From: Microgenomates group bacterium ADurb.Bin219
GTDB lineage: Bacteria > Patescibacteriota > Microgenomatia > UM-FILTER-40-11
Length of the DNA stretch: 54,489 nucleotides
Assembly (NCBI GenBank): GCA_002069945.1
Contig: MWCH01000007.1
Coordinates: 1-54,489 of the forward strand
Direction of reading: 5' to 3'
Numbering within the stretch: position 1 is the stretch's first letter; each line of letters begins with the position of its first letter. Below are positions 1 through 31,967 of this stretch, piece after piece. Below the pieces are notes generated by a model. It was not told the DNA's origin. It did no database searches and worked only from the letters and a program-made list of their open reading frames with translations. The position numbers were made by a program, and so were the translations under genes.

Positions 1-105
1 GGTAAGCCCGGTAATGCCGGTAACGCCCGTGATTCCCGTGATACCGGAAATGCCGGTAACGCCGGTGGGTCCGGTAAGACCGGTGATTCCCGTAACCCCA
101 TTGAC
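1..105 (-). repeat. Collagen-like G-x-T coding triplet repeat
   Basis: On the minus strand this stretch encodes repeated Gly-X-Thr/Pro triplets (GITGLTGPTGVTGISG and onward) and continues past the window edge. It is a 9- to 18-bp degenerate DNA repeat. Such tracts form collagen-like stalks in bacterial and phage fibres and are prone to length variation. Confidence 0.85.
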
Positions 106-2610
106 TCCAATAGCGTCCGTCCAGCTTGATCCGTTACAAAAATAGAATTTATTATCGTCTCCGTTATAATAAAGAGTTCCAGCCGTGTTGGCATCACAAG
201 TTCCGGCTTGGGTTGTATTCAACGGTCCTAGCCCCAAAGTTCCGGAGAGAGTAGCATTTCCGGCTACATCTAAAAGTTCAGTCGGATTGGTTGTTCCTAT
301 ACCAATATTTCCAGTACTGGCAATATATAGCCGGTCGGCCAAGCCAGTGTCTCCGCCAATTGAGGTTCTAAAAGAAAGAGATTGATCATTAAGAGAATTG
401 ATATAGTTAGTTGTATTTTTATTTAGTGTGATTTGGCCGGCAAAAGAAGCGGTTGGCGTTCCCGAGTCAAGATTAACAAAAGCAAAATCGGCGCTGTCCG
501 AAGCGGTTCCGCCAATTAAAAGATCAACAGTTGAATTTTTAGGATATAAAGCACCTTCAACCAAATCCCAGTAATTTATGCCGACCGAAGCGGCTTGGGT
601 CCAACTGGGATTGGCTCCGGTTCCGTTGGTAGTCAGAACATATCCGGCAATGCCCGGAGCCAAAGTGGACATGGTTCCGGTTGAGGAGAAAAAAGGGACG
701 GATCCCTGAACGACGCTTGACCAGTTTTGACCTGTTCCGCCATATTCTGTTGCAATTATTGAACCGGTCCAGGAACCGCCGGTAATGGCTCCACTGGAGC
801 TGATAACAAAATTACCGCCGCCAACAGAAAGAGAACCGGAGATAGTAGCCGAACCGGCCGATTGAAGATTTCCGCCAAGATAAGTATTTCCCAAGGCATC
901 AACCGTAAAACGATCCAGGAGACTTGATCCGGACTGAAGTTTCAAAAGATAATAATCCAAGTTGTCGTTAAGAACGCCACCGTAATAAAGATTGCCGGTT
1001 GTTAAAGCCGAAGAAGTGGCATTAACTGTGCTGTTCATAGTATTCCCGGAAGTTAAATAAATACTGCCGGTTCCGCCGGGAATTAAAGAGATGTTACCGT
1101 TAGTTTCCGGATTGGTGGTGATATAGACGGTTCGTCCGTCAAGAGTAAAAACGCCGGAAGTTGAACGAATTGAAGGAGAATCGGCCGCAATAACTAAATT
1201 GCCAAAAGCATTAATGACAGGAATTGTATTTATTGTCGCTCCGGCAGTTGCGGTTGGATCACTGCTGGGAAAGGAAGCGACCGGGTAACCGTCCAGGTAT
1301 TTACTGTTAAAAGCATAGCCGACCGTGGCAATTTGTTGACGGTTAACCATCTCGGGATTGGTTTCAACGGTTACGCCAAGCCAAAGGTTAGTGTTGTCTT
1401 TAAAGATATTTTGGGTTAAGGCAGTCGTATCGCCAAGTAAGGTATTAAAAATGCCGTCTTGATCTGGTGCGATACTTTTTGTCTCACTCCAAAGGCGGGC
1501 AGAGCCGGAAGCGGCAAAGTCGTTATAAAGAGCAAAAGTAAACCAGGTCGGAGTAGTAATCGGTGTATCGGTAATGTCGGTTAGTCTTCCTTGAAAAGAC
1601 ATAAAGAGCGGCGGACTGGCCGGACCGACAGCCAATTTTGGAGTGGAAACCGGTTGACTTAGCTGTTGATAAAAACCGAATCCGATACCTGCGGAAAAAA
1701 TGAATAAAATTGCCCAATGGAAATAGTTGGCAAGCGGAGAACGATTGTAGTCGATATACCATCTCGGTCGGGAATAGCGAAGGCGGAAAAGTAATTTTTT
1801 ATAGAAAGGCCAGCCTTTCTGGGAGATTTTTTCCGGAGCAAAAATTTCCTTGCTCAGTCCTAGTTTATTTTTTGAGCGGTTAAAAAAATTAAATCTTCCC
1901 CAAAAGAGCCCTTTTTTCGGGGTAGAAATTGTCTGGCGCTCAAACGGATTTTCTGCCAAATAGCCTCGGATTTTAGCAAATTGAAAAAAACTTCTGAGGG
2001 AAGAAATTTTACGATTGACGGAGCGGGGAGAAAGCTTGGCAATCTTTAAAAGACGATCTTGATATTCGACAAGGATTAAAGGCGTAACCCTTTTTAAGAT
2101 CGGGATTTCTTCGTCTGAAACCTTATCCAGCCAATAAAAAAAGTTTTTTACATCCACCAAATAGTTTTTGATGGTTGAAGGCTGACATTTCTGAGAGGAA
2201 AGATAACTCTCAAAACCGGAAAGATAATTTTGAGATTGATTTAAAGAATTTGAGTTCATTTTCCGCGGAATATTCGCAAGATTTTTGGCAAAATTTACTT
2301 CAATCCAGTGCTGCTCGAGACAAAACTGACCGAATTTTCTAAGCGAGGAAAGCCGACGATTGATGGTGGCAAGGGGAATTTGATTACCGGTTAAATATTT
2401 TTTGTATTCTTCAATCGTTTGAGCGTTAATTTTTTTAAACAATTCAGGCTCAAATTGATCATCAAAAACAAAACCGTTTTTTTTGAGATAGAGAATGAGC
2501 CAACCGAGAAAGTGGTTGAGATCGGAAAGGTAATTTTTTTTGGTTACAAAAGAAACTCCTTGAAAGTCTAAGAAGTTTTTAAACCCGGAAGTGATATTTT
2601 GAAGTAACAT
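1..2610 (-). CDS. Giant surface protein: tandem integrase-like N-domains, TM helix, tail-fibre/collagen exterior (3' end off window)
   Basis: Reading the minus strand from the ATG at 2610 gives one open frame of about 870 codons that leaves the left edge without a stop. Residues ~3-115 and ~124-235 each resemble the four-helix SAM-like core-binding domain of Xer/phage tyrosine recombinases; the second has 'PSTIKNYLVDVKNFFYWL' and 'SPRSVNRKISSLRSFFQF'. No catalytic R..H-R-H..Y domain follows. A basic linker leads to one hydrophobic helix (~293-315, 'YFHWAILFIFSAGIGFGF'). The rest is exterior-like: an 'FQGRLTD...' module ending in 'YAFNSKYLDG', a 'YGGTGQ' motif, 'GNIGIGTTNPTELLDVAG' as in phage tail fibres, then collagen-like G-x-T triplets. 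The family is not a known enzyme; membrane anchorage with a DNA-binding-like cytoplasmic part is inference. No clear ribosome site precedes the ATG. Confidence 0.82.
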   Translation of the reverse strand, partial: MLLQNITSGFKNFLDFQGVSFVTKKNYLSDLNHFLGWLILYLKKNGFVFDDQFEPELFKKINAQTIEEYKKYLTGNQIPLATINRRLSSLRKFGQFCLEQHWIEVNFAKNLANIPRKMNSNSLNQSQNYLSGFESYLSSQKCQPSTIKNYLVDVKNFFYWLDKVSDEEIPILKRVTPLILVEYQDRLLKIAKLSPRSVNRKISSLRSFFQFAKIRGYLAENPFERQTISTPKKGLFWGRFNFFNRSKNKLGLSKEIFAPEKISQKGWPFYKKLLFRLRYSRPRWYIDYNRSPLANYFHWAILFIFSAGIGFGFYQQLSQPVSTPKLAVGPASPPLFMSFQGRLTDITDTPITTPTWFTFALYNDFAASGSARLWSETKSIAPDQDGIFNTLLGDTTALTQNIFKDNTNLWLGVTVETNPEMVNRQQIATVGYAFNSKYLDGYPVASFPSSDPTATAGATINTIPVINAFGNLVIAADSPSIRSTSGVFTLDGRTVYITTNPETNGNISLIPGGTGSIYLTSGNTMNSTVNATSSALTTGNLYYGGVLNDNLDYYLLKLQSGSSLLDRFTVDALGNTYLGGNLQSAGSATISGSLSVGGGNFVISSSGAITGGSWTGSIIATEYGGTGQNWSSVVQGSVPFFSSTGTMSTLAPGIAGYVLTTNGTGANPSWTQAASVGINYWDLVEGALYPKNSTVDLLIGGTASDSADFAFVNLDSGTPTASFAGQITLNKNTTNYINSLNDQSLSFRTSIGGDTGLADRLYIASTGNIGIGTTNPTELLDVAGNATLSGTLGLGPLNTTQAGTCDANTAGTLYYNGDDNKFYFCNGSSWTDAIGVNGVTGITGLTGPTGVTGISGITGITGVTGITGLT

Positions 2611-10002: not shown

Positions 10003-11328
10003 ATGAAAGTCATTCTCACAAGACCAAGTTACAAGACCCACCTCATTACGCCCCCTTTGGGGATCGGCTACCTTTCTTCCTATTTAAAAAAGCAAAAAAT
10101 TGATTGCCGGATAATTGACGGTCTGAATTTAAATTTAACCAACCGGCAATTGGCCAATCAATGCCGGTCGGCGGATATCGTGGGAATCTCGGTTCTTTCC
10201 TATTATTTTCTTCAGGCAATTGATTTAAGCAAAAAGCTCAAAAAAATGGGCAAAATCGTGATTATCGGCGGTCCTCACCCTAGTTGTTTGCCGGAATTGA
10301 CTTTAAAAGAAACTAAAGCCGATTTTGTGATTAAAGGAGAAGGGGAAGAAGTATTCTCTCAATTGGTTAAGGAAATTGAATCCGGAAAAATTAACCGCAA
10401 AGAAAAGATCCGCAGTGGCCCTTTTATCAAAGATCTTTCTTCTTTGCCCTTTCCCGATTGGGAGCAAATTGATCCGCGAATTTATCAGAAGGCGCCTCAC
10501 GGCGGGGTGGTTAAGGCTTTTCCGGTAGCGCCGATTTTAACGACCCGCGGCTGTCCTTACGAATGTAAATTTTGTGCTTCGCCGAAGCTTTGGCAAAGAA
10601 CAATCCGCTACCGCCGGCCGGCGGAAGTGGTAAAAGAAATAAAGTATTTGGTTGACCGATTCGGGGTAAAAGAAATTCATTTTGAAGACGATAACTTTAC
10701 CTTAAAAAGAGCCCACGCGGAGAAAGTCTGCCGGTTATTGATTAAAGAAAAGATAAAAGTAGCCTGGGCGACTCCCAACGGTATCCGGGCCGACAAGGTT
10801 GATCTGAGCCTTTTGAAATTAATGAAAAAAGCAGGTTGTTATTTTGTCGCTTTCGGAATTGAATCCGGCAACCAAACCATTTTAAATAATGTTGCCAAGC
10901 ACAGCAATTTGGCAGTTATCAGGAAGGCGGTTAAATTGGCCCATCAGGCCGGTTTAATTACCCAGGGCTTTTTTATTTTTGGCTTGCCCGGAGAAACAAA
11001 AGAAACCGTCAGGGAGACTATTGATTTTGCCAAAAGCCTGCCTTTGGACAAGGCCCAGTTTTTAATGCTGGATATTATTCCGGGTTCTGCCCTCTGGGAA
11101 GAACTTAAATTCGGCAAAAAAGTTAATTGGCAATTGGATTCCTTCCACGAAATTTCCTGGCTGCCGCCGACGATAAAACGGGAGGATTTGGACCGCGCCC
11201 AAAGCTTGGCTTTCAGGGAGTTTTTCCTTAATCCGGCAAGAATAATGAAAATGTTAAGCTTGATTAAATTAAGCCAACTAAAATATATTTTAAGAAGAGC
11301 TAAAGATTTTGGAATTGTAAAAAAATGA
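10003..11328 (+). CDS. B12-binding-domain radical SAM protein
   Basis: 441 residues. The N-terminal Rossmann-like half (1-140) has the opening 'MKVILTRPSYKTHLITPPLGIGYLSSYL', shortened here as 'PPLGIGYLSSYL', and 'VIIGGPHPS', typical of cobalamin-binding domains lacking DxHxxG. The radical SAM core carries 'RGCPYECKFC' near residue 184 (CxxxCxxC for the 4Fe-4S cluster), followed by 'EIHFEDDNFT' and 'GIESGNQ'. Family members methylate or rearrange unactivated carbons; the substrate here is unknown but the setting points to lipids or sugars of the surface glycan. Its TGA overlaps the next ATG (ATGA), so the two are translationally coupled. Confidence 0.88.
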   Translation: MKVILTRPSYKTHLITPPLGIGYLSSYLKKQKIDCRIIDGLNLNLTNRQLANQCRSADIVGISVLSYYFLQAIDLSKKLKKMGKIVIIGGPHPSCLPELTLKETKADFVIKGEGEEVFSQLVKEIESGKINRKEKIRSGPFIKDLSSLPFPDWEQIDPRIYQKAPHGGVVKAFPVAPILTTRGCPYECKFCASPKLWQRTIRYRRPAEVVKEIKYLVDRFGVKEIHFEDDNFTLKRAHAEKVCRLLIKEKIKVAWATPNGIRADKVDLSLLKLMKKAGCYFVAFGIESGNQTILNNVAKHSNLAVIRKAVKLAHQAGLITQGFFIFGLPGETKETVRETIDFAKSLPLDKAQFLMLDIIPGSALWEELKFGKKVNWQLDSFHEISWLPPTIKREDLDRAQSLAFREFFLNPARIMKMLSLIKLSQLKYILRRAKDFGIVKK

Positions 11329-16098: not shown

Positions 16099-17787
16099 AT
16101 GAAAAAAAGAATTTCCGATCTTTTGGCCCTGCTGCTGGCGATTCTAGTCGGTTTTGGCAATGTTTACAATATCTTTCTGAGTTTTTTAGCCACCCCTCAA
16201 GGAACAGAATATTTGGGTATCAGTAATTTTTTTCTTCCCGACTATCTTTTTTACTTGACCTTTATCAAAGAGGGGATGAGAGGTCTTTGGCGAATTGTAA
16301 TTCTTTATACTCAGGAAGAAACCGTTTATTGGGTTATTCATTGGCCGTACCTATTAATCGGCCATTTGTCCCGTTTGTTTTCTCTTTCCGCGCCGGTCGG
16401 TTATTGGCTGAGTGTCTTTTTGTTGTCCGGGGCAATTGTTCTTTGCGCCTATCTTTTTCTTAGGTTGTTTTTTAAGTCGATTGGCAAAAGCCATTTGGTT
16501 TTTCCGGTTTTGCTAGCCTATCTTTTTACCGGCTCTTTTTTCTTGATTCAGAAAGATCCGTTTTCGATAAGAGTTATGGATGTCACTTGGTATTACCGGG
16601 CAGATCTTTTTACAAGACTCGGGATTATTCCTCATCATTTAATCGCTAATTTAGGGGTCATGATTTTTTTTATTGCCTCTTTTTATCTTTTTGAATCTTT
16701 TAAAAAAAAGAAATACACTTTTCGTTCTTTTTTGTTTTGGTTGGCAATTGCCTTTCTCCTTTTTTTAGTGATGTCAATCGCGCCCATCGAGGTGACTTAT
16801 CTTTTGCCGGCTTTTGGTGCGGCTTTGGTATATAGCCTTTTTTTCTACCGCTTTTTTAAACCAAAGGGGATTTTATTTAACGGGATATCGTTTGAAGTTT
16901 TAGTTTTGGGACTTTTTTTGTTTGGTCTTTATTTCCAAAAAAATATTGCCTCATTTTACAACGAGGAAGTCGGAATTGCCGAAATATCCAACCATATGGC
17001 TTGGCCGACCTTAAAAAATTTTTTTTTCGCCTCGGGCCCTGTTTTGATCTTGGCGATTCCCGCTTTATTAATTCTTTGCAGAAATGTGATTAAAGCGTTT
17101 ATTCACCCCTCTCTCTTTATGGGGATTACCGCTTCAATCCTGTCTTATGCATTATTCTCCACAAAGATTTCTCTGTTGTTTAATACGCACAATTCTCGTT
17201 TTTTGTTCCCCGATGCCTATTTATTTATGGCAATGGTGGTTTTTTTGGCGTTGGATGAACTTAAAGCAAAATCGTGGAAAAAAAAGGCTGTAATTTGGCT
17301 AACGACGATTTTGATAATTGGTTTTTCTGTCCCCGCGAATTATTTTATATTAAAACTAAGAGGAGAAAAGAGAACTAGCTTTACCGAAGAATATTATGAG
17401 TATTTACCCGATGATCTTGTTGACGGCTTGAAATTTTTAGAGAACGAATCTCTTAAAAATCCTTTGGTTTTAACAACAGTTGTTTCAGGTTTACGGATGT
17501 TTTTGCCTATTTACACTCAGGCTAGAGTTTACGCTACTAATTACGCGCATACGATTAACTTTCCTCAGAAAGCCAAAAACTGCAATGATTTCTTTACCAA
17601 CGTGATGTCAGATCAACAAAAAATTGATTTCCTCCGCCGGGAAAAAATCAATTATCTCGTTTTTTCAATTTACGATCTTGGAGATTTGGATAAAAAGTTC
17701 TTGCACGAGCCTTATTTTATCTCTCCCAATTTGCCTTTGAAGTTAATATTTTCCAATTCCAAGGTGGTTATTTATAAAGTGATTTAG
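16099..17787 (+). CDS. GT-C-like membrane glycosyltransferase, paralogue type A (copy 1)
   Basis: 562 residues with about 11 helices. The N-terminal block 'SDLLALLLAILVGFGNVYN' and the first-loop 'FFLPDYLFYLTFIKEG' are shared with the genes at 17804 and 23737. The C-terminal soluble domain begins 'YLPDDLVDGLKFL', includes 'QQKIDFLRREKINYLVFSIYD' (quoted in parts: QQKIDFL / REKINYLVFS) and ends 'KVVIYKVI'. Family knowledge supports a lipid-linked sugar transferase; the acceptor is unknown. An extended -10 (TGTTAAAAT, ending 16060) leaves a leader of about 30 nt. First gene of a plus-strand operon to at least 25434. Confidence 0.72.
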   Translation: MKKRISDLLALLLAILVGFGNVYNIFLSFLATPQGTEYLGISNFFLPDYLFYLTFIKEGMRGLWRIVILYTQEETVYWVIHWPYLLIGHLSRLFSLSAPVGYWLSVFLLSGAIVLCAYLFLRLFFKSIGKSHLVFPVLLAYLFTGSFFLIQKDPFSIRVMDVTWYYRADLFTRLGIIPHHLIANLGVMIFFIASFYLFESFKKKKYTFRSFLFWLAIAFLLFLVMSIAPIEVTYLLPAFGAALVYSLFFYRFFKPKGILFNGISFEVLVLGLFLFGLYFQKNIASFYNEEVGIAEISNHMAWPTLKNFFFASGPVLILAIPALLILCRNVIKAFIHPSLFMGITASILSYALFSTKISLLFNTHNSRFLFPDAYLFMAMVVFLALDELKAKSWKKKAVIWLTTILIIGFSVPANYFILKLRGEKRTSFTEEYYEYLPDDLVDGLKFLENESLKNPLVLTTVVSGLRMFLPIYTQARVYATNYAHTINFPQKAKNCNDFFTNVMSDQQKIDFLRREKINYLVFSIYDLGDLDKKFLHEPYFISPNLPLKLIFSNSKVVIYKVI

Positions 17788-17803
17788 GGACTTTTTATTT
17801 AAG

Positions 17804-19516
17804 ATGAAAAGAAGAACTTCCGATCTTTTGGCCTTACTGCTGGCGATTCTAGTCGGTTTTGGCAATGTTTACAACGTAATTGTAGATTTTCTGAGGACTC
17901 CGTCCGGAACGCAATATTTGGGCACCGGCCGTCTTTATCCTCCGGACTACATCGGCTATTTAACTTTTATCGCCCAAGGGCTGAGAGGGAATTGGCAAAT
18001 ATTTAATCTTTTGTCCCAGGAAAAAACGACCGGGTTTTGGGTTATAGACTGGCCTTATTTGTTGATTGGTCATTTGTGCCGATTGTTTTCGCTGCCGGTC
18101 TATGCCGGGTATTGGCTAAGTGTTTTTTTTCTGACAACGGCGATCGTCTTTTGCGCTTATCTTTTTCTTCGTCTGGTTTTTGAAAAAATCGGGAAAAGTT
18201 ATTTGGTTTTTCCGGTTTTACTGGCGTATATTTTTGCCGGTCCGTTTCCCCATATCGGGAGAAACCCGCTAAGGGTAATTGATGTTTGGTCTTTAACCTG
18301 GTATTACCGGGCGGATTTTTTTGACCGAATCAGTATTATTCCTCATCATCTGGTTGCCAATTTAGGCGTGCTTTTGTTCCTGATTTTTTCATTGAGTTTT
18401 TTTGAATCGTTGAAAAAAGCAAAGTATGATTGGTTTTCCTTTCGGTCGTTGCTTTATTTAACCGTTTCCCTTCTTCTGATAATGTCAATCAGCCCGATTA
18501 AACTAATTTATCTTCTGCCTTCTTTGGGGATAGCCTTTATTTACGGAATTTTTTATTTTAAATTAGTCAGCCTCAGAAAAGTTTTAGTAGGCAGTGCTTC
18601 GTTAATGTTTTTAGTGCCGGTATTGTTTTTGTTTGGCCTTTATTTTCAAAAAAATGTGGCCGTTACTTTTACACCGGTAAAAATTGCCTGGGAGAAATCA
18701 ATGATGCAATGGCCGCCAACGGCCGAGATTTTTTTTATCACTTCCGGTCCGCTTTCGGTTTTAGTGATTCCTGCTTTTTTGCTTATTATTATGGACATCA
18801 TCAAAACCAAAATTCATCCGGGAATATTTTTGGGTTTTTTAATCTCTTTATTGTCTTATGCTTTGTTTTTTACCAAGATTTCCCTTTTGTTTAACAATCA
18901 CAATTCCCGGCTTCTTTTTCCCGATGCCTATTTATTTATGGCAATGGTGATTTTTTTGGCTTTGGATAAACTTATGGCCGGTTTTAAGAAGAAGGGGAGA
19001 GTTGTCTGGCTGATCGCCATTCTCCTTGTTTCTTTTTCTCTGCCTTCGTTTGTGGTGGTCTTAAAGGATAAATTATCGGAGCCGATGGGTTTTGAGGGAG
19101 CGGCGCATCTGGTTAAGTATTTACCCGACGAAATTGTCGCCGGCATGCAATTTTTGGGAGCTCGTGATTCAACCAATCCCCTGGTTTTGACAACGACTTC
19201 TTCCGGGTTAAATATTATTTTGCCCGTTTATGCCCAGGCCAGAATCTATGCTTCCTGGGGCCTGGGGACAATTGACTTTCCTCAAAAATTAAAAAATTCT
19301 TCCGATTTCTTTTCCAACACCCTGTCGGATCAACAAAAAATTAACTTTCTGCGTCGGGAAAAAATTAATTACCTTATTTTTACGATTTACGATCTTCCTC
19401 CCGGCGTTGACCGAATGGAGATAAAATATCTGAACGAACTTTACTTTATTTCCCCGGGTTTACCTCTTGAGTTGATTTTTTCCAACGCAAAGATGGTTAT
19501 TTACAAGGTAATATAA
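17804..19516 (+). CDS. GT-C-like membrane glycosyltransferase, paralogue type A (copy 2)
   Basis: 570 residues, tandem paralogue of the previous gene after a 16-bp gap. The first ~60 coding bases are nearly identical to copy 1, then the proteins drift apart. It has the first loop 'LYPPDYIGYLTFIAQG', about 11 helices, 'LFNNHNSRLLFPDAYLFMAM' near the last helices, and a C-terminal 'YLPDEIVAGMQFL' domain ending 'KMVIYKVI'. Same predicted role as copy 1 with perhaps a different sugar or acceptor. Confidence 0.72.
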   Translation: MKRRTSDLLALLLAILVGFGNVYNVIVDFLRTPSGTQYLGTGRLYPPDYIGYLTFIAQGLRGNWQIFNLLSQEKTTGFWVIDWPYLLIGHLCRLFSLPVYAGYWLSVFFLTTAIVFCAYLFLRLVFEKIGKSYLVFPVLLAYIFAGPFPHIGRNPLRVIDVWSLTWYYRADFFDRISIIPHHLVANLGVLLFLIFSLSFFESLKKAKYDWFSFRSLLYLTVSLLLIMSISPIKLIYLLPSLGIAFIYGIFYFKLVSLRKVLVGSASLMFLVPVLFLFGLYFQKNVAVTFTPVKIAWEKSMMQWPPTAEIFFITSGPLSVLVIPAFLLIIMDIIKTKIHPGIFLGFLISLLSYALFFTKISLLFNNHNSRLLFPDAYLFMAMVIFLALDKLMAGFKKKGRVVWLIAILLVSFSLPSFVVVLKDKLSEPMGFEGAAHLVKYLPDEIVAGMQFLGARDSTNPLVLTTTSSGLNIILPVYAQARIYASWGLGTIDFPQKLKNSSDFFSNTLSDQQKINFLRREKINYLIFTIYDLPPGVDRMEIKYLNELYFISPGLPLELIFSNAKMVIYKVI

Positions 19517-19553
19517 ATTTATTGGTTTAAAATTAATCAGAGAAGAGATTCAA

Positions 19554-21677
19554 ATGGAAAAAAACTTAAAAATAAATTCGAATTCCGAAGAAAAAAAATT
19601 TAATCAAGGAACGGAGGCGGTAACCATAAGTATGGGAGACAAAATTATTTTTTGTCTGGTTATTGCCTATTTGATTATTATAATTTCGGCAATTGTTTCC
19701 GGTATTTTATTTGGTCATACGGAAAAGAGCGAGTGGTTGATATTTCAAATCGGCTCGGTTTTAACTTTCTTTTTGGCGGCGGGAGTCGGTCGCTTTAGAA
19801 GCCTTGCCAATAACAGATCTCTTAACCGGATTATTAGATTTAGCCCGATAATCGGTTTAATCTTTTTTGTCACCCACTCCTTATTTTTGACTTTTTATTT
19901 CCGCATAATTGATTACGGTTTTTGGTTGCTTATTTTTGGGGGATTGGCCCCGGTAATATATCTTTACCGGAAAAATTTCCGCAATCTGGTTAGGCTTGTC
20001 TTGATCGAGGGTGTTTTATTATTTTGCGTTGGCGGATATTTTTTTGAATTTTTTGAATATTTCAAACATTTTGGAATCCTTCGTTATTTGTTTGTTTTGA
20101 TTGCCTGGACTTTATTGAGTCTGGTAATTCTTGCTTTAACAAAGATAAAAACCCCAAAAGTTTCCGGGAAATTTGTTACAGCGGGTATTTTTTTCCTGGT
20201 AGTTTTGGCTGCTTTCAATTCCACCAGGAAGATTATGGACTATTGGAATTATTCTAATTTTGTTGGACCGGCGTATGAGTTGAGTTTGGGGAAAAGTTTA
20301 TTGAACGACCGAATTCCTTCTTTATACGGTTATTTGTCCGTTCATTTTATAAAATTGATACTCACTCCTTTTGGCCTTAATTTTGAAAACTTTCATTTTT
20401 TAAACATAAATTTATTTTTTTTATATTATTTGGGCTTTTATTTTGCCTACAAAAAAATCTTCAAAGACAATTTGCTGGTTTTACTGTTCAGCTTGGTGAC
20501 AACTTTCCTAAGCACGCGATTTTATGTTTCGGAGGTTAGAGGTTTGCCGCCGTCTTGGGGTCCGTTAAGACATGGATTTGGCTTGTTGATTATTTTGGCG
20601 TTATTGTATTTGCCGGAAAAGGTTAATTATTGGCTGATTTCCTTTTTAGCCGGGATGACGGTTTTCTGGTCCCCGGAAGTGGCTGTTTATGTTGTCCCTG
20701 CCTTTCTGTTTACCTGCCTGGTTAAAGCGATTGTCCGGGGCAAAAAATTATCTAAAATAATTGTTCTGTTAGTTGGTAGTTTGATTCCCTTTGTCCTTAT
20801 AACTTTGGGCTTGTTTTTGGGAATTGCTCTTCGGGAGTCGGGAGGACAGGGGTTGCTTTCTTTTATTTCTCGTCTTTCGCATTATTTCTTATTTGCCGGA
20901 TTATTTAAGAATACGCCCATAAATGGTGCGCTTATTATGAGAGCCCCTGTTTTTGGGAATTATTATTTGGCGGTTTTGGTCTTGATTATCGGCTTATGCT
21001 TGGTTTTTATTCAAGAGTGGAAGACGGAAAAAAACAAATTGTTTCTGCCTTTATCTTTTTTGGCGATATATAATGTTGCCGCCTTAAGTTATTTCGTCTC
21101 CAACTCGGCGCCGATTACCTTAGAAGTTATCAGTTGTTTTATTTTATTGGAACTGGCGCTTATCTTTCGTTATTTTCAAGAGGATAAAGGGTTTTGGCCG
21201 CGGATTTTTCTGCCCGGAACTTTGTTTTTAACCGTTTTTTCGATTATTTGTATTTGGAATTTTTTGGGTTTGCCGCCCAAGACTTACGAGAAGGAATTTC
21301 TCTCAATAGAGAAAGTCCTGGCCGATTACCAAATCCTTAAAGTTAATTATGGTTTGACTTCCGAAAACGTTTTGCTTTTGAGCAAGTTTTACGATACGCC
21401 ATTGATTATTGCCAACCAAATCAAAACGATTTGGCCTTTAAATCCGAGCGCCACGACAATTCTTACCCCTAACTATATAGAGAATTACCTGATCCCGAAC
21501 ATGGACAAGGTTAAAATCGGAACAAAATTGGTCTATACCGAAGATTTGCCGCCCGAATTCAGTGACTTTCTCAATAATAATTATGTTTTTGAAGAAATTA
21601 ATCCGGCCAAAAGGGTGGGGATTTTCAAAGTCTACAATTTTAAGCCGCGGTCGGAACTTAATCTGTTAACCAAATGA
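19554..21677 (+). CDS. Large GT-C-like membrane protein, paralogue type B (copy 1)
   Basis: 707 residues with about 15 hydrophobic segments. The N-terminus is cytoplasmic and hydrophilic (1-28), then helices alternate with short loops; the first large exterior loop contains 'FVGPAYELSLGKSLL', a possible active-site loop with E/D. A central block (residues ~272-393) is identical to copy 2 at DNA level. The C-terminal ~150 residues are soluble ('YGLTSENVLLLSKFYDTPL', 'EDLPPEFSDFL') and end 'IFKVYNF'. The role is likely oligosaccharide assembly in the membrane; no exact family is recognised. Start supported by an AGAAGAGA site ahead of the ATG. Confidence 0.65.
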   Translation: MEKNLKINSNSEEKKFNQGTEAVTISMGDKIIFCLVIAYLIIIISAIVSGILFGHTEKSEWLIFQIGSVLTFFLAAGVGRFRSLANNRSLNRIIRFSPIIGLIFFVTHSLFLTFYFRIIDYGFWLLIFGGLAPVIYLYRKNFRNLVRLVLIEGVLLFCVGGYFFEFFEYFKHFGILRYLFVLIAWTLLSLVILALTKIKTPKVSGKFVTAGIFFLVVLAAFNSTRKIMDYWNYSNFVGPAYELSLGKSLLNDRIPSLYGYLSVHFIKLILTPFGLNFENFHFLNINLFFLYYLGFYFAYKKIFKDNLLVLLFSLVTTFLSTRFYVSEVRGLPPSWGPLRHGFGLLIILALLYLPEKVNYWLISFLAGMTVFWSPEVAVYVVPAFLFTCLVKAIVRGKKLSKIIVLLVGSLIPFVLITLGLFLGIALRESGGQGLLSFISRLSHYFLFAGLFKNTPINGALIMRAPVFGNYYLAVLVLIIGLCLVFIQEWKTEKNKLFLPLSFLAIYNVAALSYFVSNSAPITLEVISCFILLELALIFRYFQEDKGFWPRIFLPGTLFLTVFSIICIWNFLGLPPKTYEKEFLSIEKVLADYQILKVNYGLTSENVLLLSKFYDTPLIIANQIKTIWPLNPSATTILTPNYIENYLIPNMDKVKIGTKLVYTEDLPPEFSDFLNNNYVFEEINPAKRVGIFKVYNFKPRSELNLLTK
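20367..20733 (+). repeat. 367-bp near-identical tract, copy 1
   Basis: Matches 22475-22841 at a constant offset of 2108 bp with one difference (C at 20702, T at 22810). The flanks of the two genes are clearly diverged, so the edges are sharp. It encodes the identical central membrane block of both type-B proteins. Confidence 0.95.
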
Positions 21678-23740
21678 AAACGGATTTGAAAATAAATTCT
21701 TTATCAAAGATGGAATCGGGTTCGGAAATCGGTTGGCTTGCCGGAACGGGGGATAAAATCACTTTTTGTTTGGTAATATCCTACCTGGTTATCGCAATTC
21801 TGGCAACTGTTCTTGGTTTAGCTTTCGGCCATACGGAAAAAAGCGAGTGGCTGATATATGAGATCGGGGCGGTGATTATTTTTGTTTCAATCGCAATGCT
21901 GGGCCAACTTAAAAAAAATCCCTCCGCTGGCCGGCTAAATCGGATAATCAAAGCTAGCCCGGCAATCGGGCTTGGGCTGGCCATGAACCACCTAGTATTT
22001 TTGTTTTTTTATTTTAAAGCGATTAATTTTGGCCATTTGGTTCTTCTTTTTGTTGGCCTGATTCCGGTTGTGTTTCTTTACCGGAAGAAACCTTCAGTTT
22101 TGATTCAATCGGCCTTAGCTATCGGGGTTTTATTGTTTTGTGTGGAGGGATATTTATTTGAATTTTTGGCCAAATTTAAAATTCGGGAGTATTTGCTGGT
22201 CATACTATCCTGGCTGGTTTTAAGCCTTAGCCTGATACTGATTAAAAAAAGCCGGTTTAAAATACCGTCTCTTTACCGGCGGTTAATTTCTTTTGCTACC
22301 TTTCTATTAATAGTTTTAATTGCCTTTAATTCAACCAGAAAGACGATTGATTATTGGCACTATTCCTTTTTTATCGGTCCTGCTTATGATTTGAGTTTGG
22401 GAAAAAACCTGCTTAAGGAAATTCCCTCAATGTATGGCTATTTGTCAATCCATTTTATTGAGTTGGTGATGCGGCCTTTTGGCCTTAATTTTGAAAACTT
22501 TCATTTTTTAAACATAAATTTATTTTTTTTATATTATTTGGGCTTTTATTTTGCCTACAAAAAAATCTTCAAAGACAATTTGCTGGTTTTACTGTTCAGC
22601 TTGGTGACAACTTTCCTAAGCACGCGATTTTATGTTTCGGAGGTTAGAGGTTTGCCGCCGTCTTGGGGTCCGTTAAGACATGGATTTGGCTTGTTGATTA
22701 TTTTGGCGTTATTGTATTTGCCGGAAAAGGTTAATTATTGGCTGATTTCCTTTTTAGCCGGGATGACGGTTTTCTGGTCCCCGGAAGTGGCTGTTTATGT
22801 TGTCCCTGCTTTTCTGTTTACCTGCCTGGTTAAAGCGATTGGCCGGGAGCAAAAGTTTTTTAAAAGTTTGTCTTCATTAATGACCGAGCTGGTGCCGTTT
22901 GCAATTATGACGGCGGGGATATTTCTTTCAATTGTCGCTTTTGAACTAAGGCGTTACGGGGAATTCCCGAAATTTTCCAATTACTTTCAATTTGCCTCTT
23001 TGTTCAGAAACGGTTTGGTGACAAAATTGATACCTTTGTTCGGAAATTATTATTTGCCGCTGCTGGTAATGGTCATCGGGTTGTGTTTGGTTTTTTTTCA
23101 AGAGGGGGGAAGACAAAAAAATACTTTATTATTACCTCTTTCCTTTTTGGCAATCTACAATGTCGCCATCTTCAGTTATTTTGTGACAACTTCCATTTCG
23201 GTTACGGTGAATAATATCAGTTGCTTTGTTTTATTGGAGCTGGCCATAATTTTTCAATATTTTAGGAAGGATGAAAATTTTTGGTCAAGAATTTTTTTGC
23301 CGGCAACCTTGTTTTTGACCGTCTTTTTTACGGTTTGTTTATGGAATTTTTTGCAAGTAATACCGGAGAAAGAAGATCCCCACTATTCACAAGTGAAGAC
23401 GCTTTTAAACGATTACCAAACAATTAAAAAAACTTACAATTTGACGTCCGAAAATGTTCTGGTCCTCAGTAAATTTTACGACACCCTGATTGTGACGGAA
23501 AACAAAATAAAAACAATCTGGCCGGTAAACCCGAGCGCGGGGACCATTCTGGTTCCCAACTATATTGAAAAGTATTTGGCCCCCAATCTTAACCAGGTTA
23601 AGAAGGGCACGATTTTGGTTTATACCGAAGATTTGCCGCCCGAATTCAGTGAATTTCTTAATAGCCACTATATTTTTGAAGAGATTAATCCGCAAAAGAG
23701 AATCAATATTTTTAGAGTTTATAATTTTTGGCCAAGATGA
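21674..23740 (+). CDS. Large GT-C-like membrane protein, paralogue type B (copy 2)
   Basis: 688 residues, same layout as copy 1 and overlapping it by ATGA. Shared features are 'GDKITFCLVISYLVI' near the first helix, 'FIGPAYDLSLGKNLL' before the conserved central block, and C-terminal 'YNLTSENVLVLSKFYDT' and 'EDLPPEFSEFL'. Outside the central tract the two proteins are clearly divergent, so the duplication is old and the tract recent. Its stop overlaps the next ATG at 23737. Confidence 0.65.
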   Translation: MKTDLKINSLSKMESGSEIGWLAGTGDKITFCLVISYLVIAILATVLGLAFGHTEKSEWLIYEIGAVIIFVSIAMLGQLKKNPSAGRLNRIIKASPAIGLGLAMNHLVFLFFYFKAINFGHLVLLFVGLIPVVFLYRKKPSVLIQSALAIGVLLFCVEGYLFEFLAKFKIREYLLVILSWLVLSLSLILIKKSRFKIPSLYRRLISFATFLLIVLIAFNSTRKTIDYWHYSFFIGPAYDLSLGKNLLKEIPSMYGYLSIHFIELVMRPFGLNFENFHFLNINLFFLYYLGFYFAYKKIFKDNLLVLLFSLVTTFLSTRFYVSEVRGLPPSWGPLRHGFGLLIILALLYLPEKVNYWLISFLAGMTVFWSPEVAVYVVPAFLFTCLVKAIGREQKFFKSLSSLMTELVPFAIMTAGIFLSIVAFELRRYGEFPKFSNYFQFASLFRNGLVTKLIPLFGNYYLPLLVMVIGLCLVFFQEGGRQKNTLLLPLSFLAIYNVAIFSYFVTTSISVTVNNISCFVLLELAIIFQYFRKDENFWSRIFLPATLFLTVFFTVCLWNFLQVIPEKEDPHYSQVKTLLNDYQTIKKTYNLTSENVLVLSKFYDTLIVTENKIKTIWPVNPSAGTILVPNYIEKYLAPNLNQVKKGTILVYTEDLPPEFSEFLNSHYIFEEINPQKRINIFRVYNFWPR
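22475..22841 (+). repeat. 367-bp near-identical tract, copy 2
   Basis: Partner of 20367-20733 (one mismatch). See the type-B genes; most simply explained by gene conversion between tandem paralogues. Confidence 0.95.
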
Positions 23741-25434
23741 AAAAAAGACTACCCGATCTTCTGGCTTTATTCTTGGCGATTTTGGCGGGTTTTGGCAATG
23801 TAAGCAGTATTGTTTTCAACTATCTTAAAACTCCTTCGGGAACCCAATATCTGGGCACAAACAGTTTTTATCCTCCGGACTATCTTTTCTATTTGTCATA
23901 TCTGGTTCGGGGACTGAAAGGTCATTGGCAAATTTTTAATCCTCTTTCCGAAGACGGAAAAATCGGATTTTGGGTTATTCACTGGCCCTATATAATAATC
24001 GGCCAACTGTCGCGGTTGTTTTCTCTTTCCGCCCCCGCCGGTTATTGGGTGGGCGTTTTTCTCTTAACCTGTCTTATCGTTTTTTCCGCTTATATTTTTC
24101 TCAAGTTGGTTTTTAGCGCTATCGACAAAAATTATTTGGTTTTTCCGACCTTGTTTGTTTATCTTTTTGCCGGTCCTTTTTTAAAAGTTCAACAAAATCC
24201 GTTTAAATTTGAGGTTTGGCGGATAAATTGGTATTACCAGGCGGATTTTTTTGAAAGGATCAGCACGATTCCTCATCATCTGGTCTCAAATTGGGGAGTG
24301 ATGATTTTTTTTATTTGTTCTTTGACTTTTTTTAACTCACTGAAAAAGGAAAATTTCCTGAGATCTTCCTTTTTGGCTTTCTTTGAATTGGCCGGCTCTC
24401 TTCTTTTGGTTATGTCTATTAATCCTCTTAAACTAACGTATCTTTTGCCGGCCCTGGGAATCTCTTTTTTATATGGGATTTTTGCCAACAAACGGATAAG
24501 ATTTGCCAGTATTTTAGTTCATTCTTTTTTACTTATTTTTCTTGGTTTAATTTTGTTTTTGTTCGGTTTGTATTTTCAAAAAAATGTCGCTCTTTATAAT
24601 CTTTTCGCCGAAATTGCGGCTTGGGAAAAATCAATAAGCCGGTGGCCGGATTTAAAGAATTTTATTCTTGGTTCAGGCCCGGTTTTCGTTTTGGCGATTC
24701 CGGGGCTACTGATAATCGGCAAACAGATAGTTAAATTTTCCTTACCACCCTCTATTATTATGGGTATTTCTGCCTCGATTTTATCTTATGCTTTGTTTTT
24801 TACCCGGCTTGCGTCGCTTTTGGGCACTCACAATGCCCGTTTTCTCTTTCCCGATGCTTATCTTTTTATGGCCATCGTGATTTTTCTGGCAATTGATTCT
24901 CTTATAAAAGGGAAAAGTTTTAAACGAACGGCCATTTTTCTAGTAACAATTTTGATCATTTGTTTTTCCGCTCCTACGGTTTATTTTGTTTTAAAAGCCC
25001 GGTCTTCCGATCACCGTGATTTTGAACACGCCAAGAGTGTTTATAAGTATTTGCCCGACGAAATAGTTGAGGGCTTTCAATTTTTAGACCGGCGATCTTC
25101 CGACCACCCCCTGGTTTTAACAACCACCGTTTCCGGAATGGGAATGCTGGTGCCGGTTTTTACCGAGGCGAGAGTATATGCTTATCGAAGTCTTTCCACC
25201 ATTGATTTTCCCTGCAAAGCAAAAAATTGCAATGATTTTTTTACCGGAGTGATGTCGGGCTGGCAAAAAATTAATTTTCTGCGTCAGGAAAAAATTGACT
25301 ATCTGGTTATCTCCATTTATGATTTTGGCAGCCCGGAGGTAAATAATTTGCGCCATCCCTACTTTATTTCCAAAGACCTGCCCTTGGAGCTCATATTTAT
25401 AAACTCCCAACTGGCCATTTATAAAGTTATCTGA
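23737..25434 (+). CDS. GT-C-like membrane glycosyltransferase, paralogue type A (copy 3)
   Basis: 565 residues from the ATG at 23737, whose A is the base before the TGA of the type-B gene (ATGA overlap). It shares 'LPDLLALFLAILAGFGNV', the first loop 'FYPPDYLFYLSYLVRG' and the C-terminal 'YLPDEIVEGFQFL' / 'EKIDYLVISIYDFG' blocks with copies 1 and 2, and ends 'AIYKVI'. The A-A-B-B-A order shows that units were duplicated and interleaved inside a single operon. Confidence 0.72.
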   Translation: MKKRLPDLLALFLAILAGFGNVSSIVFNYLKTPSGTQYLGTNSFYPPDYLFYLSYLVRGLKGHWQIFNPLSEDGKIGFWVIHWPYIIIGQLSRLFSLSAPAGYWVGVFLLTCLIVFSAYIFLKLVFSAIDKNYLVFPTLFVYLFAGPFLKVQQNPFKFEVWRINWYYQADFFERISTIPHHLVSNWGVMIFFICSLTFFNSLKKENFLRSSFLAFFELAGSLLLVMSINPLKLTYLLPALGISFLYGIFANKRIRFASILVHSFLLIFLGLILFLFGLYFQKNVALYNLFAEIAAWEKSISRWPDLKNFILGSGPVFVLAIPGLLIIGKQIVKFSLPPSIIMGISASILSYALFFTRLASLLGTHNARFLFPDAYLFMAIVIFLAIDSLIKGKSFKRTAIFLVTILIICFSAPTVYFVLKARSSDHRDFEHAKSVYKYLPDEIVEGFQFLDRRSSDHPLVLTTTVSGMGMLVPVFTEARVYAYRSLSTIDFPCKAKNCNDFFTGVMSGWQKINFLRQEKIDYLVISIYDFGSPEVNNLRHPYFISKDLPLELIFINSQLAIYKVI

Positions 25435-27005: not shown

Positions 27006-28406
27006 ATGAAAATCTTATTGGTTAAGCCGGTTACGCCGCCAAATTTTGTTATCAATGTTGTTCCGCCTATCGGTTTAGGCTATTTGGCAACCGCTTTGCG
27101 CCAGGCCGGCTTTAAAAAAATCAAAATTTTGGATTGTGTTAAAGAAGGCTTGACTTTGGCCGATTTTAAAAGGGAGGTCAAAAAATTTAAACCCGACCTG
27201 GTCGGCTGGCAGATTTTTTCCCACGACTTGGAATCGCTTAAAGAAAGTTTGGCTATAGTTAAGGCTTCTAATCCAAAAACAATAACTCTTGCCGGCGGAC
27301 CGCATCCTTCCGGTTTTCCCGAGGAGGTTTTGGCCGATTTCTCTCAACTGGATTACGCTTTTAAGGGCGAGTCGGAAATCGGTTTGCCTTTATTGGTTAA
27401 AAAAATTGAGGGGAAGAAGATTGATTTGACAAAAATTCCGGGTTTAATTTGGCGTCGGGGTAAAAAAATCGTTGTCAACCAGCAGGTTTTTTTCTGCGAT
27501 TTGGACAAGTTGGGGATGCCGGCCTGGGATTTATTAAAGCCGCAAGATTATCCGGAAGCGCCTCAGGGCGTGATTTTTAAAAACCTGCCCATTGCGCCTA
27601 TTATGGCAACCCGCGGCTGTCCTTTTCAATGCACTTTTTGCGCCGGAAAAACGGTAACAGGTTTAAAAATCCGCTCCCGATCCGTAACCAATCTTTTGGC
27701 GGAGATTGAATTATTGTACCGGGATTACGGCATTCGCGAAATTCATTTTTTGGACGACAACTTTACTTTTAACAAACAATACGTTAAGGATTTTTGCCGG
27801 CAGTTGCTGCAAAAAGATTTTAAGATTTCCTGGTGCTGTCCGAACGGAGTCCGCTTGGATACTTTGGATTTGGAGGTTTTAACTTTGATGAAAAAAGCCG
27901 GTTGTTATTATATTTCCGTCGGTATTGAATCTGGTTCAGATCGGATTTTAAAACTGATGAGGAAAAGCCTAAAGGTCAAAGATATTCGTTGCCAGATAAA
28001 GTTGATTAAAAGAGCCGGTTTGACGGTTAACGGATTTTTTATTCTCGGCTATCCCGGGGAAACCAAAAAAGAAATGGAAAAAACAATTAAGTTTTCTCAA
28101 AACCTGGGCTTAACCCGGGCCGCTTTTTATAATTTTTTGCCCTTGCCGGGAACCGAAGCTTACCGTCAATTGATCCAAACGGGGGAGATTTCAGCAGACG
28201 GCTTTGATTTTAGCCGAACCTTTCAATCGGAAACGCCTTATTCGCCCAAAGGAGTGAGTAAATCGGAGCTAAAAAAGCTCCAGGAAAAAGCCTATTGGCA
28301 ATTTTATCTGCGGCCGGCAGTTCTTTTTGCTCTTTTAAAAGAAATCCGTTCCTATAATCAAATTAAATATCTTTTCCGGAGAGCAAGAACCTATTTAAAA
28401 TTTTAA
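27006..28406 (+). CDS. B12-binding-domain radical SAM protein
   Basis: 466 residues. Cobalamin-type domain first ('VPPIGLGYLATALRQAGF', 'TLAGGPHPSGFP'), then the radical SAM core with 'RGCPFQCTFC' near residue 204 (CxxxCxxC), 'EIHFLDDNFTF' and 'SVGIESGSDRIL', and a C-terminal helical region. It is close in layout to the 10003 protein. A carbon methylation or ring/chain rearrangement is expected; substrate unknown. The next gene starts on the base after its stop. Confidence 0.87.
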   Translation: MKILLVKPVTPPNFVINVVPPIGLGYLATALRQAGFKKIKILDCVKEGLTLADFKREVKKFKPDLVGWQIFSHDLESLKESLAIVKASNPKTITLAGGPHPSGFPEEVLADFSQLDYAFKGESEIGLPLLVKKIEGKKIDLTKIPGLIWRRGKKIVVNQQVFFCDLDKLGMPAWDLLKPQDYPEAPQGVIFKNLPIAPIMATRGCPFQCTFCAGKTVTGLKIRSRSVTNLLAEIELLYRDYGIREIHFLDDNFTFNKQYVKDFCRQLLQKDFKISWCCPNGVRLDTLDLEVLTLMKKAGCYYISVGIESGSDRILKLMRKSLKVKDIRCQIKLIKRAGLTVNGFFILGYPGETKKEMEKTIKFSQNLGLTRAAFYNFLPLPGTEAYRQLIQTGEISADGFDFSRTFQSETPYSPKGVSKSELKKLQEKAYWQFYLRPAVLFALLKEIRSYNQIKYLFRRARTYLKF

Positions 28407-29584: not shown

Positions 29585-30505
29585 TTACTTATTTGTTTTT
29601 AAAAATCCGGCTATGAATCCCAAGCTCCAGCCCAGAAACCACAAGCAAAAAATCAGCCAATAGGTATAGAAAAGGACGGTTTTTTTAGCAAACGAAAGAT
29701 AAATTGAGACGGCCAGAAAAACCATAAAAGCCGGTAATATTCCCACGAGCGAGATTAAGGCCAAAGAGGGGAGAAAATGAAACCAACGGGCCATTTTTGG
29801 GTGAAGTTTGATGGCCTGACTTCGTCCGAAAGCAAAACGGTAAAACTGGATGAATATTTTTTTATATGTTGGCCGGCGGTAGTGATTAACTACAACCCTT
29901 GGCGTAAAAAGAATTTTATAACCGTTTTTTAATAAGCGAAAATCCAGTTCTTCATCTTCGCAGGTTAATAAATCGGGATTAAAATTGCCGGCTTTTAAAA
30001 TTGGGCTTTTTCTATAAAGCACGTTACAGCCGGGATTATGATATGTTTCCGTAATCTTGTTTGAAGAAAATCCATAGCGGGAGCCGGGTTTGGTCAATAA
30101 ACTAATGACTTCACCGGCTGCTTTGGCAAAATTGGTATCGTCTTTTGGGGTGATATTTGGTCCGCCGACAGAAGCTACTTGGTCGTTTTTTAATTCGGCC
30201 AGAAGCCCTTTTAACCAGTTTTTCGGAACAACACAATCGGCATCGGTAAAAGCAATTAATTCGCCCCTGGCTTTTTCAACGCCGATTTTGCAGGCGGCCC
30301 CGCGAATTTTTAAAGGATTATGATAAACTTTGGCGCCAAATTTGCGGGCAATGGCAATTGTTTTGTCAATTGAGCCGCCGTCAACAACAATCAACTCCTG
30401 TTTGACTTTCGGGTAAGCGATTTTTTTTAACGATTCAAGACAATGGGGAAGGTTTTTTTCTTCGTTAAGAGTAGGGATGATAATTGAAACAAGCGGCAGA
30501 TTCAT
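29585..30505 (-). CDS. GT2 glycosyltransferase with membrane tail
   Basis: 306 residues. Motifs 'SIIIPTLNEEKNL', 'LIVVDGGSIDKT', 'FTDADCVVP' (DxD) and 'CEDEELDFRLLKNG' (the ED catalytic-base motif plus acceptor loop) are all present; two helices end the protein (~240-300). This is typical of processive or single-step glycan-building GT2 enzymes. The start overlaps the end of the upstream radical SAM gene (30502) by 4 bp. Confidence 0.87.
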   Translation of the reverse strand: MNLPLVSIIIPTLNEEKNLPHCLESLKKIAYPKVKQELIVVDGGSIDKTIAIARKFGAKVYHNPLKIRGAACKIGVEKARGELIAFTDADCVVPKNWLKGLLAELKNDQVASVGGPNITPKDDTNFAKAAGEVISLLTKPGSRYGFSSNKITETYHNPGCNVLYRKSPILKAGNFNPDLLTCEDEELDFRLLKNGYKILFTPRVVVNHYRRPTYKKIFIQFYRFAFGRSQAIKLHPKMARWFHFLPSLALISLVGILPAFMVFLAVSIYLSFAKKTVLFYTYWLIFCLWFLGWSLGFIAGFLKTNK

Positions 30506-31902
30506 TTTTTAAGCATTTTCGGCAAGGCAAAAAACCCGGTTCTTATTAGCCGAAAAAGGTCGTCTTTTGAGTTAAGACTGCCAAGGGTATTAAATAAGTA
30601 TTTCGGAGTGAAGTAGATTGAACGCATGGCCTTAAAACGCCAATAATTAAGTTGTTCGGCTGTTAGCTGGGGATAGTTGATTTGATTATTTTGTTTAAGG
30701 CAGCCTTTTTTCTTCAGATAATTAAAAAGGGGAGTTTCCGGTTGGGGCTGGGGAATAAAAAACTGATAGCCCTCAATCCCCAACTCCTGAGCCCATTTGA
30801 TAGTATTCTTAATAGTTTGTTCGGTTTCTCCCGGAAGGCCGAGAATAAAATCGCCGTGGATTTTTAAACCGGATTTTTGGGCGTCTTCGGTAAATTTCTT
30901 CATTATTCCCGGAGTTGTGCCTTTATTAATATTTTTTAAGATTGCCGGATCGGCGCTTTCGTAACCGACATGGAGAAAACGGCAGCCGGCCTTTTTCATC
31001 AATTTCAAAGTTTTCAAATCCATCAGGGCGTCGGCGCGGGCATAACAGGACCAGGTAATTTTGATTTTTCTTTTAATAATCAATTGGCTTATTTCTTTGG
31101 CCCGCCAAGCGGGGAGAGTATCGTCCTGAAAAAAAACTTCTTTGACTTCGGGCAATTCTTTTTTAATAAAAAGAAGTTCTTGAATGACATTTTCGGGGCT
31201 TCTTGTTCGGTAATTGGCCGCTCCGCGGTGAATGGTATTGGGCCAAAGGCAAAAAGAGCATTTTCCCCAGGAACAACCGCGGCCGGTAAATAAATCAACA
31301 AAAGGGTGGAGCAAACTGGCCTGGTGATATTTTTCAATGTTTAAATGTTTTTTGTACACTTCGGTGACAAAGGGGAATTGGTTCAATTGCTCCGGTTTCA
31401 GAAAATCTCTTTCCGGATTAACCATAATTTCTTTTCCCCGGCGAAAAACCAATCCCTTAATCTTTTCCGGAGGTTTTTTATTGGCCAAATCAAGCAAAAC
31501 CTGGTCAAATTCGCGGGGAATAATGGCGTCAATTTCTTTGTTTTGGCTTAAGATTTTTTGGGGATGGGTGCTGCACCACGGTCCGACCAATACTATCTTG
31601 CTGCCGTTGATTTTTTTTATTTTCAAGCCGATTTTTAAGTCGTTGGTCAGGCTTTCGGCGGAGATATAAAGAGCGGTTATTTCCGGCCGGAATTGTTTAA
31701 CCCGGGAATAGACTTCAGCCGGGGAAAGATGGGCGACTAAAGCGTCCAGAAGCTTGGCCTTGTGGCCGTGTTTTTCCAGCCAGCCGGTAGCATAGGCCAA
31801 AAATATCGGATACCAATTACTGCCGGAAATGGAAGGCCAGGTGCTGCGGGCGGAGCGGATATAGTTTTCCTTAAAAGGCGGATTTAGCAAAAGGACTTTC
31901 AT
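30502..31902 (-). CDS. B12-binding-domain radical SAM protein, Cx4Cx2C variant
   Basis: 466 residues from the ATG at 31902 (MKVLLLNPPF, the classic start of this family). The longer frame to 31974 runs into the divergent neighbour and is not used. TGATAAAAT, an extended -10, ends 8 nt before this ATG. The cluster motif is 'GRGCSWGKCSFC' near residue 206, with four residues between the first two cysteines, a known variation in B12 radical SAM enzymes. 'EVFFQDDTLP' and 'HVGYESADP' follow. Substrate unknown; overlap with the GT2 gene suggests a joint pathway. Confidence 0.85.
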   Translation of the reverse strand: MKVLLLNPPFKENYIRSARSTWPSISGSNWYPIFLAYATGWLEKHGHKAKLLDALVAHLSPAEVYSRVKQFRPEITALYISAESLTNDLKIGLKIKKINGSKIVLVGPWCSTHPQKILSQNKEIDAIIPREFDQVLLDLANKKPPEKIKGLVFRRGKEIMVNPERDFLKPEQLNQFPFVTEVYKKHLNIEKYHQASLLHPFVDLFTGRGCSWGKCSFCLWPNTIHRGAANYRTRSPENVIQELLFIKKELPEVKEVFFQDDTLPAWRAKEISQLIIKRKIKITWSCYARADALMDLKTLKLMKKAGCRFLHVGYESADPAILKNINKGTTPGIMKKFTEDAQKSGLKIHGDFILGLPGETEQTIKNTIKWAQELGIEGYQFFIPQPQPETPLFNYLKKKGCLKQNNQINYPQLTAEQLNYWRFKAMRSIYFTPKYLFNTLGSLNSKDDLFRLIRTGFFALPKMLKK

Positions 31903-31952
31903 CAGCTTGTATTTTATCACAGCCAGAAAGGGAAAATTTTGACGGAAAAAGG

Positions 31953-31958
31953 TATACT
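31953..31958 (+). promoter_or_regulatory. -10 box directly before the 31968 start
   Basis: TATACT ends 9 nt before the ATG at 31968; no ribosome site or convincing -35 is visible. The upstream in-frame TTG at 31962 would leave even less room. Confidence 0.5.
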
Positions 31959-31967
31959 GTCTTGAAA

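Follow-up and report, generated by a model that had tools for sequence, protein, structure and literature searches.

Membrane proteins of the ToxR/CadC and MyRF kinds carry a cytoplasmic DNA-binding or DNA-binding-like domain, a single membrane helix and an external domain. Their cytoplasmic domains are winged-helix or Ndt80-like, and they have no long adhesion fibre; the eukaryotic MyRF includes the S74 trimer module. Tyrosine recombinases (XerC/XerD/XerA, lambda Int and Cre) join a core-binding domain (CBD) to a C-terminal catalytic domain that carries R-K-H-R-[H/W]-Y (PMC5357621). In Cre, K43, M44 and Q90 are treated as specificity determinants of helix B and helix D, and Q90 is stated to contact DNA (PMC6486577). 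The MAT fibres of Bdellovibrio, probable trimers with variable tips, carry a signal peptide and, after it, a conserved N-domain (~130 aa, beta-rich) of unknown attachment (PMC10769870). For Strigamonas, small epibiont Patescibacteria, very large membrane proteins with adhesion domains have been described (PMC13059738).

Here we compare with these systems a fibre gene of a Microgenomates group bacterium (ADurb.Bin219), located at the start of a 54,489-nucleotide stretch of DNA that was analysed as a whole (the window; contig MWCH01000007.1). The Microgenomates form a large group whose members are ultra-small and uncultured. Patescibacteria, to which this organism belongs, are thought to live attached to other microbes. 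To our knowledge, little has been established about the anchoring and control of their surface machinery.

Results

Tandem core-binding domains at the base of a membrane fibre

A minus-strand frame fills window positions 1-2610. It starts with an ATG at 2610, runs uninterrupted for 870 codons, as the earlier note had claimed, and is open at the contig end. As window position 1 is base 1 of contig G000:C7, the C-terminus of the fibre gene is missing. The following features were located, all on the minus strand.

1-2610, minus: fibre gene, 870 aa (ORF, ATG at 2610, C-terminus missing)
2275-2607, minus: CBD1, integrase/Xer-type core-binding domain, aa 2-112 (Pfam PF02899/PF13102 and AlphaFold helices)
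2533-2538, minus: K25-N26 of CBD1, equivalents of CBD2 K148-N149 (alignment)
2356-2358, minus: R85 of CBD1, equivalent of CBD2 R200 (alignment)
1969-2250, minus: CBD2, second core-binding domain, aa 121-214 (Pfam PF02899 at aa 132-215 and AlphaFold helices)
2164-2169, minus: K148-N149 of CBD2, aligned with Cre K43-M44
2083-2118, minus: loop between helices B and C of CBD2, about aa 165-176 (gene break site in relatives)
2011-2013, minus: R200 of CBD2, aligned with Cre Q90
1741-1806, minus: juxtamembrane helices, aa 269-290, with the family motif RP(K/R)WYxxYHxxxxxxY (alignment and AlphaFold)
1657-1737, minus: single membrane helix, aa 292-318 (AlphaFold helix; hydropathy peak at aa 297-313)
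1291-1599 (end approximate), minus: FQGRLTD...PIT...TFALYND, the conserved segment with which the exterior begins, immediately following the membrane helix (alignment and relatives)
211-411, minus: tail-fibre or MAT-like segment, aa 734-800 (phmmer to 8ol4 and 8ond)
1-102, minus: collagen-like Gly-X-Thr repeats at aa 837-870, cut off where the contig ends (Pfam Collagen below cut-off, E 0.0013)
2676-2855, minus: three 60-bp repeats upstream of the fibre gene (palindrome AAGAGCGGAAAT-n15-ATTTCCGCTCTT around TTGACA, promoter-like region)

Pfam identified two Phage_int_SAM_1 stretches in the protein (PF02899, E 2.5e-18, above cut-off), together with PF13102 and PF13495, and gave no match to the catalytic domain PF00589 in the 870 aa. 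The two PF00589 proteins of this genome are encoded by separate genes (315 aa on C3 and 299 aa on C2). NCBIfam models of XerC and XerD matched over their first ~100 positions only. An AlphaFold2 run on an 18-sequence alignment (mean pLDDT 82.6) gave helical bundles at aa 2-112 and 121-214, a disordered linker at aa 228-255, juxtamembrane helices at aa 269-290 and a long helix at aa 292-318. The CBD1 bundle is made of helices at aa 2-16, 21-44, 63-75, 80-99 and 105-112, and that of CBD2 of helices at aa 121-139, 144-164, 177-190 and 195-214. When the model was compared with the PDB by Foldseek, the top matches were XerA, archaeal Xer, integrase N-domains, XerD and Cre, with probabilities mostly of 0.96-1.0; the best E value was just 6e-3 because a single query domain is aligned at a time. 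Two SAM-like, Xer/integrase-type domains lacking a catalytic domain, as had been proposed, are confirmed. The earlier note had named a lack of structural match to integrase N-domains, or a frame error, as grounds for giving up the proposal, and neither occurred.

An artefact, in which mis-assembly or frame fusion joined a recombinase fragment to a fibre gene, would fit the position of the frame at a contig edge, in repeats. It is refuted, with a negligible residual chance, by the same fusion in complete chromosomes and in dozens of genera, under purifying selection. A frame error is likewise excluded because many relatives carry the same domains in one frame. We consider the architecture of tandem CBDs, membrane helix and fibre nearly certain.

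Two further contigs of this genome, C11 and C12, are candidate continuations of C7, and both terminate in collagen repeats. Joining C7 to either for the true C-terminus was rejected: there is no sequence overlap, and the repeats leave any join ambiguous. A second collagen-like membrane protein of the same genome lies at G000:C12:26518-28050, and a collagen-like C-terminal half at G000:C11:3-2864. As contigs break within the collagen repeats, the assembly underestimates fibre lengths.

The family recurs across the Microgenomates

When residues 1-340 were searched against 94 relatives, numerous long frames proved to share this N-terminus. With a profile built from the inner part, 85 of 137 class genomes gave matches at E <= 1e-15. 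With Xer-sized frames (about 260-330 aa) set aside, the fibre family was found in about 68 of the 137, a manual count in which short frames could be fragments. The domain order that the earlier note had proposed to seek among Patescibacteria thus recurs in about half of the class genomes sampled; neither this class-wide conservation nor the gene split described below had been part of it. Members occur in Levy-, Woese-, Shapiro-, Roizman-, Collier-, Beckwith- and Gottesmanbacteria. Outside the class, mostly ordinary XerC-sized proteins were matched, and the other-class members L130 and L134 have a single CBD with membrane helix and fibre.

The complete single-frame proteins are 1,352-3,762 aa long, and two of them are in complete chromosomes (G019 and G039). 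Giant frames were also seen in the family (7,471 aa for the second chain on G007:C32 and 6,561 aa on G075:C1). The inner part is under purifying selection, with omega of 0.06-0.15 for close pairs, fused or split, in comparisons with unsaturated dS; two other comparisons were near or at dS saturation. A search of IMG/VR confirmed no virus-borne copies.

Membrane topology and exterior

The 30 residues preceding the membrane helix have a mean net charge of +4.3, compared with +2.0 after it, and the charge before the helix is the higher in 53 of 68 members. No hydrophobic N-terminus was found among the members examined, and the segment aligned with the membrane helix is strongly hydrophobic in relatives. 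The protein thus has the marks of type II (N-in/C-out) topology: no cleavable signal, one membrane helix and a more positive inside. A cytoplasmic N-terminus, assigned previously by the positive-inside pattern, is well supported.

By phmmer, the exterior is similar to 8ol4 and 8ond, MAT fibres of Bdellovibrio, and Pfam Collagen gives a weak match at aa 837-867. Together with the AlphaFold helix, these bear out the single membrane helix and tail-fibre/collagen exterior first noticed in the sequence. Exteriors of relatives, including L043, contain Gp34_trimer, the trimerisation domain of the T4 long tail fibre (E 3e-20), and the intramolecular chaperone Peptidase_S74 (E 8e-16); collagen repeats are present too, and the exterior usually terminates in a shared domain ending FNW(L/W)I(I/V)N. 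S74 and tail-fibre modules are also features of the MAT fibres, and MyRF has been named as an S74 protein (PMC10769870). Judging from the trimer-forming modules in relatives, the fibre is probably trimeric; variable tips are probably a further likeness to MAT fibres. In contrast to MAT fibres, the base of the family consists of a membrane helix and cytoplasmic CBDs; the N-terminus of the window protein is two CBDs in place of the MAT-type signal peptide and beta-rich N-domain, and in place of a winged-helix domain of the ToxR/CadC type.

In Candidatus Shapirobacteria (VGLL01000061.1; L041/L081), ORF2 ends at a contig edge with a Hint/intein-like C-terminus (...HNFVANGIVAHN-T), which suggests an intein or Hint domain within a surface fibre of the family.

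DNA-contact positions are conserved in both domains

Both CBDs are basic (median pI 9.5). Among 68 CBD1 and 63 CBD2 sequences, about 95% have K/R at position 148 in helix B, 94-97% have N at position 149 and 95-99% have R at position 200. Since one contig scan had used a KNY-containing pattern, with consequent ascertainment bias, we recounted conservation without those loci. In the remaining 37 CBD1 and 31 CBD2 sequences, whose loci came from the whole-protein search with no motif filter, K/R accounted for 89-90% at 148, N for 89-93% at 149 and K/R for 94-97% at 200. By contrast, nine true Xer proteins have mostly L and A at positions 148 and 149, so that N149, and usually also K148, set the fibre CBDs apart from the true Xer enzymes of the group. 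MAFFT aligned K148/N149 with Cre K43/M44 and lambda Int I98/N99, and R200 with Cre Q90. By this alignment, both CBDs carry polar or basic residues where helices B and D of Cre and lambda Int contact DNA. The K-N motif is lost from CBD2 in some Roizmanbacteria-type members (L049 and L050).

Retention of contact residues in both copies favours DNA binding over a bare scaffold, without proving it, and on sequence grounds we consider DNA binding by the fibre-protein CBDs likely. Counting against it, the basic residues also serve the positive-inside rule, a lone CBD is only half of a recombinase DNA clamp, and the motif is lost from CBD2 in the members just named. An unlikely but substantial alternative is that the CBDs have been repurposed for protein-protein contact, as a cytoplasmic cap, an oligomerisation scaffold or a partner dock that does not bind DNA. 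Such a role would suit a family in which the catalytic domain is absent from every member examined, the number of CBDs varies from one to three and CBD2 is degenerate in some lineages. However, it offers no obvious reason why both copies conserve K/R, N and R at DNA-contact positions or why their pI is basic.

As to the DNA that might be bound, the earlier note had mentioned DNA or the gene's own promoter repeats. A DNA link as such remains plausible, given the basic CBDs and conserved contact positions, whereas the repeats as target are not supported. The three 60-bp palindromic repeats are confined to this locus within the genome, and neither a counterpart of them nor the palindrome near the promoter was found upstream of homologues; autoregulation through promoter palindromes was rejected for this reason. 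Nor did we find a DNA target site for the CBDs or a conserved operator upstream of the fibre genes, a result that leaves room for more distant targets.

The lack of a conserved operator also counts against the idea of a membrane-tethered regulator resembling ToxR/CadC or MyRF, in which contact outside would alter DNA binding and gene expression. The shared topology, the family-specific K-N signature and the S74 modules of relatives are consistent with such a regulator, and the soluble, DNA-binding-like first chain of split lineages (below) could be its mobile part. Yet the ectodomain is a very long fibre, not a sensor, and the S74 module lies outside, unlike that of MyRF. We regard this explanation as improbable.

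The fibre gene is split within a core-binding domain in many lineages

The fibre gene consists of two adjacent genes in 19 of the 68 members whose loci were mapped, and no Levybacteria are among these 19. ORF1 (about 145-330 aa) encodes CBD1 and helices A-B of CBD2, while ORF2 begins with helices C-D of CBD2 and continues into the membrane helix and fibre. Eighteen of the breaks map to window aa 160-175, the B-C loop of the membrane-proximal CBD2, and the nineteenth (L057) falls at the equivalent place of a third CBD. At the junction, the two genes overlap by up to 17 bases (L115, L116, L117 and L120), meet as TAA-ATG with zero or three bases between (L041 and L044) or are separated by gaps reaching 382 bases (L059), most cases being overlaps or few-base gaps. 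Stop-codon recoding or programmed frameshifting was considered as an explanation of the split and rejected, as spacers of such different length and frame, from a 17-base overlap to the 382-base gap, indicate two genes. Both halves are under purifying selection.

Fused and split states coexist within family f1 (the fused window gene and split L044) and within family f18 (fused L042, L043 and L045 and split L046). By a quick tree, at least 7 changes between the two states are required, and strongly supported branches force 1 only. Because the break always lies in the B-C loop, one fold must be completed by two chains, and docking of the two chains to complete the CBD2 bundle is the simplest reading. 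No such natural split inside a CBD characterises the tyrosine recombinases with which we compared the family. The repeated splitting and fusion of one domain also suits the scaffold alternative, since it shows the bundle serving as an assembly interface.

Structured gaps with a closing stem and inner hairpin(s) separate ORF1 and ORF2 in L048 (7813-7915, minus strand, z -2.6) and L056 (1472-1548, minus strand, z -0.9). Rfam returned no family for either gap, and an RNA element of a new kind at the same place is possible. In L049, L075 and L059 the two halves are separated by small ORFs (about 50-120 aa), of which those of L049 and L075 share a DP...NPY/DPY..N-type motif; the small ORFs could encode a third small partner.

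Genomic neighbourhood

Across loci, the fibre gene lies among genes for surface proteins. Exported proteins, WxL-interacting-protein-like ones (WxLIP_PGBD, below cut-off at E 4e-5) and their partners, are encoded upstream, and a membrane protein with a TPR-like tail downstream; comEC-comEA-leuS often lies on the opposite strand. In the window, 33883-40041 encodes WxL-interacting-protein-like proteins and their exported partners, two pairs in all, together with a membrane protein; this module is conserved and syntenic across the class. It lies about 31 kb from the fibre gene, across a region in which membrane and radical-SAM-like genes abound. Five tandem, partly duplicated, large membrane proteins, each of about 560-710 aa and with a GT-C-like look, are encoded at 16099-25434, and two of them share long identical stretches. 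Four radical-SAM/B12-binding-like genes (10003-11328, 27006-28406, 30502-31974 and 31962-33365) sit within one surface-polysaccharide-like region.

We also considered whether the fibre is part of a DNA-uptake apparatus whose CBDs receive incoming DNA. In roughly 20-27 of 68 loci, comEA or comEC is no more than about 10 kb away, often past a divergent leuS, and in the window both (40.1-44.1 kb) adjoin the WxL-like surface module. The neighbourhood also holds the house-keeping gene leuS and cell-wall genes, however, and may reflect plain synteny; the distance between fibre gene and surface module in the window speaks against a shared role as well. Moreover, ComEC delivers single-stranded DNA, whereas CBDs bind duplex. 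A role in DNA uptake is therefore very unlikely.

Discussion

The fibre protein shares CBD fold and sequence with tyrosine recombinases and exterior sequence with MAT fibres. It differs from the former in lacking the catalytic domain and in that its tandem CBDs precede a membrane helix and fibre. The surface proteins of Strigamonas are likewise very large, but PMC13059738 mentions no cytoplasmic domain of integrase type for them. The earlier note did not recognise the architecture as described, and the open-access literature is in accord: we found there no account of a surface fibre that has integrase CBDs at its base, which, for a search of this scope, is weak evidence of absence. The component parts are of known kinds; their combination and the natural intradomain split appear to be new.

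Our preferred model, held tentatively and at a little under an even chance, is an adhesion fibre that is trimeric and is anchored to the nucleoid through DNA held at its cytoplasmic end. The window protein would form the inner end of a surface fibre that is very long and probably trimeric and that is exported across the membrane with type II (N-in, C-out) topology. At its cytoplasmic end would be one to three catalytically empty integrase CBDs with a DNA-contact face that has been kept and specialised. A trimer would present about six CBDs and could bind chromosomal DNA by avidity; anchored to the nucleoid in this way, it would resist from inside a pull exerted outside by attachment to a cell or surface. 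In many lineages, a soluble chain (CBD1 and helices A-B of CBD2) would dock with the membrane fibre (helices C-D of CBD2). The outer fibre may in this manner be physically tied to intracellular DNA. The fuller proposal, a new class of bacterial fibre tied to the chromosome through domesticated CBDs, 3-6 or more per trimer, with DNA inside, a partner cell outside and, in many lineages, a DNA-holding domain whose naturally split fold is completed by a soluble chain from a separate gene, is possible but rather doubtful.

For annotation, short ORF1 proteins and the N-termini of fibres are likely to have been mis-named as integrases. Repeated fission and/or fusion at one loop, in more than 10 families, amounts to a natural experiment in split-protein evolution. 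Present in about half of the Microgenomates sampled, the fibre is a concrete candidate, open to testing, for attachment to hosts and for a direct connection of the envelope with the nucleoid.
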